From a bacterium (GTDB lineage: Bacteria; JAMCPX01): a stretch of 26,651 bases of DNA. Shown here piece by piece: positions 10,782 through 15,439 of the stretch. Position 1 is the stretch's first letter. The number at the start of each line of letters is the position of its first letter. A program made the translations under genes and the position numbers. Under the pieces are notes generated by a model that was given only the letters and a program-made list of their open reading frames with translations, was not told the DNA's origin and ran no database searches. Location of the stretch: positions 1 through 26,651 of the forward strand of contig JAJYJX010000008.1 in the NCBI GenBank assembly GCA_021789095.1, given 5' to 3'.

Positions 10782-12092
10782 TCAGGCTACCTTACTCTTT
10801 GCCGCTTCCTTGAGCATATTGATCGTTACGGATTTTGGCCTTTCAAGCGGTGCACCGACTGCCCTGTCCCATACTATCTGTGCTGTTATGCCCATTGCCC
10901 TTGAAACACCGAACAACACCGTGTAAAAATCAAATTCCGTGACTCCATAATGGCACTGAAGCGCTCCCGAATGTGCATCTACATTTGGCCATGGGTTCTT
11001 TGCCTTTCCCTGTTTAAGCAATACGTTCGGCACAACCTCAAACACGTTGCTTACTGTCTTGAACACAGGGTCTTCGGGCATATACTTTAAGGCAAACTCA
11101 CGCTGTGCAGTGTAGCGGGGATCGGTCTTTCTTAATACAGCATGACCATAGCCTGGAATTACCTTGCCGCTGCTGAGTGTATCATTTGCAAATTTCTCTA
11201 TCTGTTCCTTCGTAGGAACTCCATTGTGTATCTTCATGAGATCGAGTATCCATTTCAGGCATTCCTGGTTTGCCAGGCCGTGGAGCGGTCCTGCAAGGCC
11301 GTCCATTGCCCCGGATATTGAGTAATAAATGTCCGAAAGCGCAGTTGCGATTAAATGACCGGTATGCGCGCTGACATTTCCGCTTTCATGGTCGCTGTGG
11401 AGGATAAGGTAAAGACGCATAAGGTTTTTGTACTCAGGGTGTTCAACACCCATCATGTGGGCAAAATTGGCACCCCAGTCAAGCGACGGGTCGGGTGCGA
11501 TAAAGGTGTCACCCTTGTATGCCCTCCTGTATATGTACGCTGCTATTGCCGGCAGTTTTGCAAGCAGGTTCATGGAATCCTCAAGCATTGGTTCCCAGTA
11601 CTCTGTTTTTTTCATGCCTTCACTGTATCTTTTTGCAAAAAGGGACTCTCTCTGCAAGACAAGAACAGCTGTTGCAAACTGCGTCATAGGATGGGTGTCC
11701 ACGGGCATGGATCTGATGACATCATAAACGTACTGCGGTACAGTTGATCTTGTTTTAAACTCTTTCTCTATCTCCAACACATCGTCCTTTGACGGCATTT
11801 CTCCGGTTAAAAGCAAATACCATAAACCTGTAGGATAGGCTTCACTCTCAGCATTTGGCTTTGGTAATTTTTCCCGTACCTCCGGGATCGTATAATTACG
11901 GAATCTGATTCCTTCCTGTGGGTCCAGATACGAGGTTTCACAAACCATTGATTTTATGTCCCTCATGCCTCCCATGACCTGCTCTATAACAACTTCATCA
12001 AATTTCGTTTTACCCAGCTCTTTTGACAGCTTGGTAACTTCTTCACGCCATGACGGAATCAGCTTTGATAATTTGTCTTTGAGTCTACTCAT
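10782..12092 (-). CDS. gltA: Citrate synthase, mitochondrial/eukaryotic-like type
   Basis: Condenses acetyl-CoA and oxaloacetate to citrate. The start at 12092 (MSRLKDKLSKL) is chosen because AAAGGAG sits 7 bases upstream; the frame stays open for 11 more codons without an RBS. This gives 436 residues. The sequence resembles mitochondrial citrate synthases: LILHSDHESGNVSAHTGHL, then SGAMDGLAGPLHGLANQE, then GYGHAVLRKTDPR. Catalytic residues are His271, His317 and Asp372, each exactly three less than pig His274/His320/Asp375. Geobacter sulfurreducens is known to carry a eukaryote-like enzyme of this kind. The gene is divergent from the condensing-enzyme fusion and has its own promoter with an overlapping palindrome. 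Confidence 0.94.
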   Translation of the reverse strand: MSRLKDKLSKLIPSWREEVTKLSKELGKTKFDEVVIEQVMGGMRDIKSMVCETSYLDPQEGIRFRNYTIPEVREKLPKPNAESEAYPTGLWYLLLTGEMPSKDDVLEIEKEFKTRSTVPQYVYDVIRSMPVDTHPMTQFATAVLVLQRESLFAKRYSEGMKKTEYWEPMLEDSMNLLAKLPAIAAYIYRRAYKGDTFIAPDPSLDWGANFAHMMGVEHPEYKNLMRLYLILHSDHESGNVSAHTGHLIATALSDIYYSISGAMDGLAGPLHGLANQECLKWILDLMKIHNGVPTKEQIEKFANDTLSSGKVIPGYGHAVLRKTDPRYTAQREFALKYMPEDPVFKTVSNVFEVVPNVLLKQGKAKNPWPNVDAHSGALQCHYGVTEFDFYTVLFGVSRAMGITAQIVWDRAVGAPLERPKSVTINMLKEAAKSKVA

Positions 12093-12114
12093 ACGCTTTC
12101 TCCTTTCAAAATTT

Positions 12115-12126
12115 ATTGTATACAAT
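12115..12126. promoter_or_regulatory. Palindromic operator candidate ATTGTATACAAT
   Basis: A perfect 12-base palindrome overlaps the end of the citrate synthase -10 element and its predicted transcription start, where a bound repressor would block initiation. The form ATTG-N4-CAAT resembles sites of some GntR-family regulators, but the regulator is not encoded in the window and family assignment is inference. Confidence 0.5.
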
Positions 12127-12218: not shown

Positions 12219-12274
12219 ACCAGGTGCAGGCAGATTATTGCATCTGCAGAATCAATATAATAAGGAGGCAAACT

Positions 12275-13720
12275 ATGGTTGGTATCGTGTCGTACGGGGG
12301 GTATATCCCCAGACGAAGGCTGAACAGGATGTCGGTGATCCAGGAAATGGGGTGGTATATACCAGCACTGCTGATGGTTGCCAACGGTGAGCGCTCCATG
12401 TGCAACTGGGACGAAGACAGCATAACAATGGCGGTAGCGTCAGCGCGGGATTGTATTTCAGGGTTTGATAAATCAAAAATAGACGGTCTATTTCTTGCAA
12501 CAACAACACCTGCATACGCAGACAGGCAAAATGCAGGCATAGTGGCTGCAGGGTTGAATCTCAGGGAGAACATTGCTACGGCAGATTTTACATCTTCTTT
12601 AAAATCAGCGACATCTGCCGTGATTTCAGCCCTGGAATCCATAAAAAGCGGCGAAAAGGGTAATATTCTGGTTGCTGCCGCAGATCACAGAAAGACAAGG
12701 TCGGCAAGTTTTTATGAAATGTGGTTTGGTGATGGCTCAGCTTCACTTTTGCTTGGTAATGACAATGTCATAGCCGAATATAAGGGCTCGTATTCCATGT
12801 CCCTGGATTTTGTCGATCATTTCAGGGGCGAAGGGAAGGATTTCGATTATACATGGGAGGAGAGGTGGATCAGGGACGAAGGGTATGCAAAGATTATACC
12901 ACAGGCCATAAACGGGCTATTGGCAAAATACAAACTTTCAATAAAAGATATAGCAAGGGTTGTGTACCCGTGCTTTATATCAAGGGAGCACAAGGGTATC
13001 GCTAAAAAACTGGGCACATCCAGGGATCAAGTCATTGATAACATGCACGAGATGACAGGCGAAACAGGGGCAGCACATCCGCTGGTAATGCTTGTAAGCG
13101 CACTTGAGCAGGCAAAACCAGGGGAGAAGATTGTTGTTGCAAGTTTCGGTCAGGGCAGCGATGCACTGCTGTTCGAGGTTACAGGGAATATAACAAAACT
13201 TGCCCAGCGGGCAGGCGTAAAGGGTTCGCTGGCCAATAAAAAAGAAGAATCAAGTTATGCAAGGTTTTTAAAATTCAATGAATTGATAAATGCGGAGACA
13301 GGCATAAGGGCAGAGGCATCAACGCAGACAGCACTGACAGCACTGTGGCGCAACAGGAAAATGATACTCGGTTTCGTTGGCGGGAAATGCAAGAAATGCG
13401 GCACGGTCCAATACCCGAAAACGAATGTATGCGTAAATCCCAAGTGCAACACGTTCCACACGCAGGAGGATTACGAGTTTTCGGATAAAGAGGCAAAGGT
13501 TATGTCATTCACGGGCGATTACCTCGCAGTATCTGTGGAACCACCCGCTATCTACGGCATGGTACAGTTCGACGGCGGGGGAAGGACCCTTCTGGATTTC
13601 ACAGACTGCGACCTTGAAAACATGCAGGTGGGGCAAGCCATGAAACTGTCTTTCAGAAAAAAGTACCAGGACAAAGAGCGCGGGTTTACAGGATATTTCT
13701 GGAAGGCAACACCAAAATAG
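12275..13720 (+). CDS. HMG-CoA synthase-like protein fused to DUF35 zinc-ribbon/OB domain
   Basis: The 481-residue protein joins a thiolase-fold domain of the HMG-CoA-synthase/KAS III type (about 1-330) to a C-terminal DUF35 domain (about 365-481). The DUF35 part has a zinc ribbon, CKKCG and CVNPKC, followed by an OB-like domain. AAGGAGG 6 bases before ATG 12275 decides the start; the frame is open 17 codons further up. By eye alignment, the catalytic Cys falls at Leu109 (DFTSSLKSATSAV against DISAACSGFLYAL or EFACKAGTAAI). The HMGCS Glu aligns with Thr in ATTTPAYADRQ, and the HMGCS His region reads VVYPCFIS. It may therefore not be a true synthase. In archaea, thiolase, DUF35 and HMGCS form one complex; here DUF35 is fused and the thiolase gene follows directly. 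Function is uncertain: scaffold, aldolase-like enzyme or CoA-handling subunit. Confidence 0.8.
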   Translation: MVGIVSYGGYIPRRRLNRMSVIQEMGWYIPALLMVANGERSMCNWDEDSITMAVASARDCISGFDKSKIDGLFLATTTPAYADRQNAGIVAAGLNLRENIATADFTSSLKSATSAVISALESIKSGEKGNILVAAADHRKTRSASFYEMWFGDGSASLLLGNDNVIAEYKGSYSMSLDFVDHFRGEGKDFDYTWEERWIRDEGYAKIIPQAINGLLAKYKLSIKDIARVVYPCFISREHKGIAKKLGTSRDQVIDNMHEMTGETGAAHPLVMLVSALEQAKPGEKIVVASFGQGSDALLFEVTGNITKLAQRAGVKGSLANKKEESSYARFLKFNELINAETGIRAEASTQTALTALWRNRKMILGFVGGKCKKCGTVQYPKTNVCVNPKCNTFHTQEDYEFSDKEAKVMSFTGDYLAVSVEPPAIYGMVQFDGGGRTLLDFTDCDLENMQVGQAMKLSFRKKYQDKERGFTGYFWKATPK

Positions 13721-13738: not shown

Positions 13739-14950
13739 ATGTCAACCGGAATCAAAGATAAAGTAGCAATAATTGGAATGGGCTGCACGAAGTTCGGTGA
13801 ACGGTGGGATGCCGGTGCAGAGGATTTGATGGTAGAGGCATTTGAGGAGGCAATTGCAGATGCAGGCATAGAGAAGAATATGATACAGGCAGCATGGTTC
13901 AGCGATTGCTTTGATGAGATACATGTGGGCAAGAGCGCGCTTCCGCTCTCCATAACCCTGCGGCTGCCCAATATTCCGGCAACAAGGGTTGAAAATTTCT
14001 GTGCCAGCGGAACGGAAGGATTCCGGGGAGCTGTTTATGCGGTAGCTTCGGGTGCATATGATATTGCACTCGCACTCGGCGTCGAAAAACTCAAGGATAT
14101 TGGTTATGGAGGTTTACCCAACTCAGGTTCCAACAGCGGCAGTCTTAACTGGCTGTGGATGCCAAATCTAACCGCCCCCGGTGCATTTGCCCAGCTTGCA
14201 ACAGCCTATGCTGCAAAATACAAGCTTTCGTTTGATGATCTTAAACGCGTACTTGCGCATATATCGGTAAAAAGTCATGCAAACGGTGCGTTGAATCCAA
14301 AGGCTCACCTGCGCACACCCATAACAGAGGATCAGGCCATATCATCGCCCATGGTGGCGCACCCCCTTGGATTGTTCGACTGCTGCGGTGTAAGTGACGG
14401 TGCGGCGGCAGCGATCGTTACTACGCCGGAGATAGCCAGAAAGCTTGGTAAAAAGGATCTTGTAACTGTTAAGGCTTTGCAGATAGCGCTGAGCAACGGG
14501 GAAGAAGCCCAGTTCAACGAATGGGACAGCACGTATTTTGTCAGTACGACAAAGGCAAGCGTTGCCGCTTATAAAGAGGCGGGCATAAAGGACCCGAGAA
14601 AAGAGATCAGTATGATGGAATTGCATGATTGTTTTTCAATAACTGAGCTTATAACCTATGAGGATCTGCATATATCTACAAGGGGCGGTGCACCAAAGGA
14701 TGTAATGGATGGATTTTTTGACCTCAGGGGCGGCGGTATTCCGACACAGGTGGACGGCGGGCTTAAATGCTTTGGTCATCCAATAGGGGCATCGGGCCTG
14801 CGCATGCTTTATGAGATGTACCTGCAGCTTCACGGTAAGGCAGGAGAGAGACAGTTGAAGGACCCAAAGCTCGGGCTAACACATAATCTCGGCGGCTTCC
14901 CGTTCATGAATGTAGTAAGCATAGCCGTTGTTGGTAAAGAAGGTATATAA
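13739..14950 (+). CDS. SCP2-type thiolase, partner of the DUF35 fusion
   Basis: A 403-residue thiolase of the SCP2/acetyl-CoA acetyltransferase-like group that usually works with DUF35 proteins. It forms or cleaves a 3-ketoacyl-CoA bond. The nucleophile is visible as Cys88 in VENFCASGTEGF, with His296 in MELHDCFS and His347 in CFGHPIGASG. The classical second cysteine near the C-terminus is replaced by the HNLGG motif, as usual for this group. AAAGGAGG lies just upstream (13725-13732), 18 bases after the fusion gene's stop, so they are one operon. Related pairs include archaeal acetoacetyl-CoA thiolase/DUF35/HMGCS and the BbsAB benzoylsuccinyl-CoA thiolase. The actual substrate here is unknown. 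Confidence 0.88.
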   Translation: MSTGIKDKVAIIGMGCTKFGERWDAGAEDLMVEAFEEAIADAGIEKNMIQAAWFSDCFDEIHVGKSALPLSITLRLPNIPATRVENFCASGTEGFRGAVYAVASGAYDIALALGVEKLKDIGYGGLPNSGSNSGSLNWLWMPNLTAPGAFAQLATAYAAKYKLSFDDLKRVLAHISVKSHANGALNPKAHLRTPITEDQAISSPMVAHPLGLFDCCGVSDGAAAAIVTTPEIARKLGKKDLVTVKALQIALSNGEEAQFNEWDSTYFVSTTKASVAAYKEAGIKDPRKEISMMELHDCFSITELITYEDLHISTRGGAPKDVMDGFFDLRGGGIPTQVDGGLKCFGHPIGASGLRMLYEMYLQLHGKAGERQLKDPKLGLTHNLGGFPFMNVVSIAVVGKEGI

Positions 14951-15091: not shown

Positions 15092-15439
15092 ATGGCTGTT
15101 TACAAATATACACATCAGAATTTGGGAGAAGAGGTAACAGCTGTTTCAGGCTATTACTCATTGAAAAATGAGGCACAGCTGGAGTACGGAGGCAGGCAGT
15201 TGTATTATTATACAGGCTACAGCGTTGTTGATACTTCCTGCTGCGGCCCCGGCGGGTGCGGTTTTGCATTGGTTGTCGGATATATCGTAAACTGGAAAAA
15301 CGGCAGCACCGCAAATGGTATCGATACATCTGATATAGAGCCTGTAACGGATGATGCACAAAGGCAGGAAATAAGGAAGCTTCTTACCAAATCTATACAC
15401 GTACAGCAGGTTAATTTCTGGGCACCGCAGGCGCGGTAA
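15092..15439 (+). CDS. Conserved-looking 115-residue protein with CCGPGGC motif
   Basis: I do not recognise a named function. The protein is small, predicted soluble and has no signal peptide. Its middle carries VVDTSCCGPGGCGFALVVGY, with three cysteines in a glycine-rich turn, and the ends are Tyr/Gln-rich and polar. The cysteine cluster could bind a metal or cluster, or be redox-active. An RBS (gaggg) precedes the ATG, and the codon use looks like that of the neighbours. It stands alone between the thiolase operon and the efflux operon, 141 bases after one and 133 before the other. The next operon's gap begins with an A/T-rich stretch. Real coding status is likely; function is open. Confidence 0.75.
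   Translation: MAVYKYTHQNLGEEVTAVSGYYSLKNEAQLEYGGRQLYYYTGYSVVDTSCCGPGGCGFALVVGYIVNWKNGSTANGIDTSDIEPVTDDAQRQEIRKLLTKSIHVQQVNFWAPQAR

Follow-up and report, generated by a model that had tools for sequence, protein, structure and literature searches.

A fused HMG-CoA synthase-like/DUF35 protein as a probable scaffold for a beta-oxidation-type thiolase

The stretch of DNA analysed here (the window, 26,651 nucleotides) encodes a 481-residue protein in which an HMG-CoA synthase (HMGCS)-like domain is joined to DUF35, directly upstream of a thiolase gene. A first-pass annotation, made from the letters alone, read the HMGCS-like domain as lacking its catalytic residues and proposed that the protein may be a scaffold, an aldolase or a new C-C bond enzyme. 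What, then, would a synthase fold without synthase residues contribute beside a thiolase? Among these options we find the scaffold best supported, while neither an aldolase nor a new C-C bond enzyme gained positive evidence.

The fused protein and its missing catalytic residues

The gene and the parts of its product are located as follows, all on the forward strand.

12263-12268, +: Shine-Dalgarno sequence AGGAGG, 6 bases before the ATG at 12275 (read directly)
12275..13720, +: fused HMGCS-like/DUF35 protein, 481 aa, from the ATG at 12275 to the stop at 13720
12275..13294, +: degenerate HMGCS/KAS III-fold domain, aa 1-340 (Z 47.6 to 6ESQ_I)
12503..12505, +: Thr77, at the position of the HMGCS catalytic Glu
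12599..12601, +: Leu109, at the position of the HMGCS/KAS III nucleophilic Cys
12968..12970, +: Pro232, at the position of the HMGCS/KAS III catalytic His
13061..13063, +: Glu263, at the position of the triad Asn; each of 90 close relatives has Glu or Asp here
13076..13078, +: His268, invariant in the window's subclade; Ala, Ser or Cys in HMGCS
13373..13447, +: DUF35 zinc ribbon, aa 367-391, CxxC-x10-CxxxxC (Pfam zf-ChsH2)
13484..13657, +: DUF35 OB-fold, aa 404-461 (Pfam OB_ChsH2_C)

The domain assignment was borne out, with Pfam recognising ACP_syn_III_C (residues 216-295), zf-ChsH2 (367-391) and OB_ChsH2_C (404-461). An AlphaFold2 model of the fusion, built on 64 family members, reached a pLDDT of 90.4 and a pTM of 0.93. 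The superposition proposed earlier, carried out for the fusion against the HMGCS chain of the archaeal thiolase/DUF35/HMGCS complex (6ESQ_I), gave a matching fold with a Z of 47.6 and an rmsd of 1.6 A over 334 residues. Other near structures were PhlA (Z 45) and MucA (Z 41), in Foldseek/VIA lists that are dominated by the HMGCS-fold domain and therefore carry little information on the DUF35 part. By sequence, the first 340 residues matched PhlA best among PDB entries (E 2e-40), followed by 6ESQ_I (E 6e-27) and MucA (E 1e-17). The DUF35 part is intact, as first described: all four zinc-ribbon Cys (372, 375, 386 and 391) are present and are kept in 97 of 97 alignment rows. The second Cys pair of the ribbon (13388-13447) reads CVNPKC, a CxxxxC spacing found in the window's subclade, versus CxxC in the wider fused clade, a difference of two extra residues.

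Catalytic positions were mapped by HMMER alignment of the fusion to 6ESQ chain I. Leu109 takes the place of the nucleophile Cys114, Thr77 that of Glu82 and Pro232, within VVYPCFIS, that of the VFHQPN His, in agreement with what had been read by eye, and the Asn of the Cys-His-Asn triad is replaced by Glu263. Since the confident model superposes closely on 6ESQ_I, a misalignment of these active-site positions is not plausible. Across 130 fused proteins, which include a few near-duplicate genomes, position 109 holds Leu in 58, Gln in 49 and otherwise Val, Thr, Glu, Met, Ile, Asn, Ser, Pro or Arg; a Cys stands there in none (0/130). Position 77 is Thr in 112 and Glu in 2, and position 232 is Pro in 102 and never His (0/130). 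In contrast, standalone archaeal-type HMGCS (23 from genome searches plus 6ESQ) carry E, C, H and N at all four positions in 24 of 24 cases, and because of this difference the loss is a clade-wide trait and not chance. A shifted Cys/Glu/His replacement set, which would have undone the first-pass reading, was sought across the fused clade and none was conserved. Cys60, Cys233, Cys261 and Cys295 were considered as shifted nucleophiles and rejected, being partly conserved and in no case kept clade-wide with a His and a Glu; Cys233 is missing in many alphaproteobacterial members (PAA, PSA, PVA) and in the wider clade.

A fused clade and its neighbouring thiolase

In an unrooted tree, which gives neither the number nor the direction of residue losses and includes a few divergent rows with very long branches, the fused proteins (62 rows), compared without columns 77, 109 and 232, form one side of a 100/100 branch that recurs in every bootstrap tree (100%). 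The fusion is therefore a member of a clade and not a broken gene. It was found in all 9 genomes examined of the window's phylum, and its full-length fused form occurs in about 35 of 366 sampled genomes from many phyla. Comparisons across genera of the window's phylum give a dN of 0.04-0.21 and a mostly saturated dS, which indicates that the domain is under purifying selection, and many residues of the HMGCS-fold domain are invariant among relatives.

Two contigs (G031:C75 and G178:C87) each carry a pair of fused paralogues separated by about 3-6 kb; the two members of a pair belong to different subclades, which suggests two different complexes per cell. PhlA, MucA and a single PhlA-like protein, L156 (G169:C19:11535-12572), fall on the HMGCS side of the dividing branch. 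This last protein is a standalone HMGCS-fold protein, 45% identical to PhlA, with Ser, Gly and His at the Glu, Cys and His positions, and may be an intermediate or a new PhlA-like system.

The genes that flank the fusion are these.

10782-12125, -: citrate synthase, oriented divergently from the fusion; conserved in this place in the phylum's genera g1-g3 and not seen beside the fusion in g4
13739..14950, +: partner thiolase of the NF004810/PRK06157 family, 403 aa, 18 bases downstream of the fusion
14000-14002, 14624-14626 and 14777-14779, +: thiolase Cys88, His296 and His347, from the alignment of thiolases
15092-15439, +: small open reading frame of 115 aa; its DTSCCGxGGC motif is conserved, and it belongs to no Pfam or NCBIfam family

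The partner scores 674.9 bits against the PRK06157 family profile (cut-off 403), and its sequence is far nearer to the thiolases 6ESQ_A (E 1e-51) and BbsB (4e-44) than to PhlC (2e-17). The catalytic residues attributed to it earlier hold throughout: Cys88, the HDCF motif at 296-299, Cys344 and His347 (of GHP) are invariant in 59 of 59 aligned adjoining thiolases. Of the 61 named loci with room for it, 58 have a thiolase gene immediately after the fusion in the same orientation, and one also lies downstream in 25 of 27 further fused loci; the two others (L135 and L136) have no recognisable thiolase within 1.5 kb. An intact thiolase Cys with two His and a DUF35 partner encoded adjacent is the combination of a BbsAB-type catabolic thiolase, while the Tyr that replaces the HDxF His in aldolases such as Sal and Ltp2 is not found here, His296 being invariant.

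Gene neighbourhoods of the fusion

In 45 of 80 relatives the fusion extends into a short-chain dehydrogenase (SDR), and 28 of those also have a recognised SCP2. A 910-residue example (L035) has the order HMGCS*-DUF35-SDR-SCP2, the asterisk marking the degenerate domain, and is preceded by a MaoC-SDR-SCP2 gene, an arrangement that is the plan of peroxisomal MFE-2. Genes for acyl-CoA dehydrogenase, AMP ligase and MaoC-SDR-SCP2 recur around the relatives' fusions, and plasmid-borne relatives (Sphingomonas, Azoarcus, Sphingobium and Variovorax) lie amid genes for enoyl-CoA hydratase, MaoC, SDR, CoA transferase and acyl-CoA dehydrogenase. These surroundings, which were absent from the first-pass annotation, as was the closest precedent, PhlA/PhlABC, point to a probable role of the relatives in catabolism by beta-oxidation.

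Within the window the fusion-thiolase pair is isolated, with the citrate synthase divergent upstream, and no beta-oxidation gene adjoins it, EtfBA at 6-8 kb being the one exception; this counts against the reading favoured below. The citrate synthase would use up acetyl-CoA produced by the thiolase. The window's genome holds 16 matches to Acyl-CoA_dh_1, 8 to ECH_1 and 14 to the thiolase family.

Each of the phylum's four genera has the 115-residue open reading frame directly 3' of the thiolase. We considered it as an obligate further subunit and rejected this, because, although 17 of the 18 sampled genomes that carry the window's fusion subclade have it (and 1 of 348 others), among named fusion genomes it is present in only 23 of 49 and for the most part lies away from the fusion there; it is lineage-linked instead. 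An AlphaFold2 model computed for it without an alignment (pLDDT 38) was of no use.

Known complexes and readings of the fusion

The catabolic benzoylsuccinyl-CoA thiolase BbsA/BbsB (PDB 7PXP) shares the thiolase superfamily (E 4e-44) and a DUF35 partner, the latter with a weak NCBIfam match to BbsA; that system is not known to have an HMGCS-fold subunit. The archaeal acetoacetyl-CoA thiolase/DUF35/HMGCS complex (PDB 6ESQ/6ET9) offers the closest fold, the same three components and a thiolase with Cys and HDCF/GH motifs, although its HMGCS is active (Cys114, Glu82), forms a separate chain and serves the mevalonate pathway. According to PMC12329534, its DUF35 joins thiolase and HMGCS, which share a CoA site. 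In PhlA-PhlB-PhlC (PpATase of Pseudomonas protegens, PDB 5M3K/5MG5; relative 9SKH) the HMGCS-fold PhlA also misses Cys, Glu and His, like the fusion, and is accompanied by a DUF35 subunit with a Cys4 zinc site and a thiolase-fold subunit bearing Cys88. PhlA was itself described as without the key Cys and Glu, the substrate is contacted by PhlC residues only, PhlC Cys88 is essential, and PhlA and PhlB are very likely required for a folded, functional complex (PMC6392133). PhlABC differs in that A and B are separate chains, that its thiolase-fold subunit is a biosynthetic Friedel-Crafts acyltransferase and that in the tree PhlA sits with HMGCS and MucA, apart from the fused clade. MucABC (Streptococcus macacae, PDB 9VBO/9VBT) has an HMGCS-fold subunit with C, E and Q at the Glu, Cys and His positions, but it is distant (22-23% identity), acetylates tetramates and consists of separate chains. 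The plan of a degenerate HMGCS-fold protein, a DUF35 protein and a Cys-bearing thiolase-fold protein is thus found here with the A and B parts fused, whereas a grouping of the fusion with PhlA and MucA as A subunits is not, both lying with standalone HMGCS across the dividing branch.

A 2010 paper (PMC2954200) had already reported DUF35 joined to members of the thiolase superfamily, to SDR and to SCP2, and had counted PhlA as an inactive member. Acetone-degrading Desulfotomaculum clusters hold a separate DUF35 and acetyltransferases (PMC8084838), for which no link to the fusion emerged. The vanilloyl acetic acid enzyme VceA was considered as a relative, which the paper found does not support.

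We consider it probable that the fusion is without catalysis and acts as an HMGCS-DUF35 scaffold for a thiolase of the beta-oxidation type. Because both adaptor parts lie in one chain, we assign it the scaffolding and CoA-handling share of a thiolase complex. The 481-residue protein would be a non-catalytic structural and CoA-handling subunit, whose HMGCS-fold domain, without the synthase Glu, Cys, His and Asn, would form with its DUF35 a platform for assembly of the downstream thiolase, in a geometry as in the archaeal and PhlABC complexes. The thiolase alone would do the chemistry, with Cys88 as nucleophile and His296/His347. We infer that such a complex forms and that it would run in the direction of CoA-dependent cleavage, with a 3-oxoacyl-CoA as substrate, closing a beta-oxidation-like pathway.

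The strongest reservation concerns the close subclade's own invariant polar set in or near the old active site (Arg84, Asp153, His182, D-Y-x-W-E-E-R-W at 191-198, Glu/Asp263 and His268), which exceeds the strict needs of a passive scaffold and could mark a second active site or a mere binding surface. As a tentative extension, the subclade's old HMGCS pocket might be a second active or acyl-CoA-gating site on Glu/Asp263 and His268, and at the same time, in Desulfobacterota and relatives, a module of a covalent dehydrogenase-to-thiolase channel, in which HMGCS*-DUF35-SDR-SCP2 and the thiolase would pass on 3-oxoacyl-CoA without release; we regard this combined proposal as possible rather than expected.

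It is unlikely that Glu/Asp263, His268, Arg84 and the WEERW loop form a repurposed active site working before or after the thiolase step, for instance as a hydrolase or decarboxylase. All 90 members of the subclade have Glu/Asp263 and His268, in contrast to HMGCS, and the Gln that stands in place of the Cys in 49 of 130 proteins recalls KSQ modules, where Gln is the residue that makes KS domains decarboxylases. However, position 109 switches between Leu and Gln, and Pro replaces the His, which is not so in KSQ. Moreover, the wider fused clade varies at both sites, with Asn, Tyr, Leu, Phe and others at 263 and with Ser, Gln, Ala and others at 268, yet the same thiolase pairing is found there, and interface or CoA-binding roles would give the same invariance.

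A PhlABC/MucABC-like C-acyltransferase, forming C-C bonds in biosynthesis, shares the same degenerate HMGCS, DUF35 and thiolase plan and has in PhlA and MucA two of the nearest structures and in PhlA the best PDB sequence match. Against it, the partner is far nearer to thiolases than to PhlC and keeps the HDCF His, PhlA and MucA cluster with HMGCS outside the fused clade, and the adjoining genes are those of beta-oxidation, not of polyketide or NRPS pathways, which together make this reading improbable.

A DUF35-dependent aldolase like Sal or Ltp2 is less credible again. In Shy(DUF35)-Sal and ChsH2(DUF35)-Ltp2 a DUF35 fused to a pathway enzyme holds a thiolase-fold partner, and Cys298 of HDCF is the counterpart of the Cys in Sal's YDCY; Sal acts through Tyr302/Cys304 of that motif and Ltp2 through paired Tyr (PMC12329534). 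In these steroid aldolases, though, the altered member is the thiolase-fold partner and no HMGCS fold is present, whereas here the degenerate member has the HMGCS fold and the thiolase keeps Cys88, His296 and His347 in 59 of 59 cases where Sal and Ltp2 have Tyr in the motif.

That the fusion is a genuine synthase, forming HMG-CoA or acetoacetyl-CoA with residues at shifted positions, can practically be dismissed, since only fold and remote homology favour it, no replacement Cys/His/Glu set is conserved, it scores below both archaeal-type HMGCS equivalog cut-offs of NCBIfam (202.6 against 244 bits for NF003274; 127.3 against 353.35 for TIGR00748), and HMG-CoA reductase was found in 0 of 9 genomes of the window's phylum. 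The missing reductase rules out a mevalonate-pathway role; DXP reductoisomerase is present in 7 of these 9 genomes. The earlier warning that the name HMG-CoA synthase would mislead was thus justified.

More generally, these proteins make up a large, widespread clade with an HMG-CoA-synthase fold but no synthase residues, which current names (OB-fold protein, 3-oxoacyl-ACP synthase III C-terminal domain protein, hypothetical protein) mask. An entire fused clade uniformly without the HMGCS catalytic set, with an intact thiolase adjoining in beta-oxidation operons, appears to be new, no description having been found in the literature searched. The fused dehydrogenase and SCP2 forms provide a direct handle on acyl-CoA channelling by DUF35 complexes, a question posed as open by the authors of the Sal structure (PMC12329534). 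The principle seen in PhlA, that of a dead thiolase-superfamily partner, would be carried from antibiotic biosynthesis to an apparently catabolic beta-oxidation. The fusion should not be annotated as HMG-CoA synthase, and is most likely the non-catalytic partner of an enzyme complex that cuts carbon chains.
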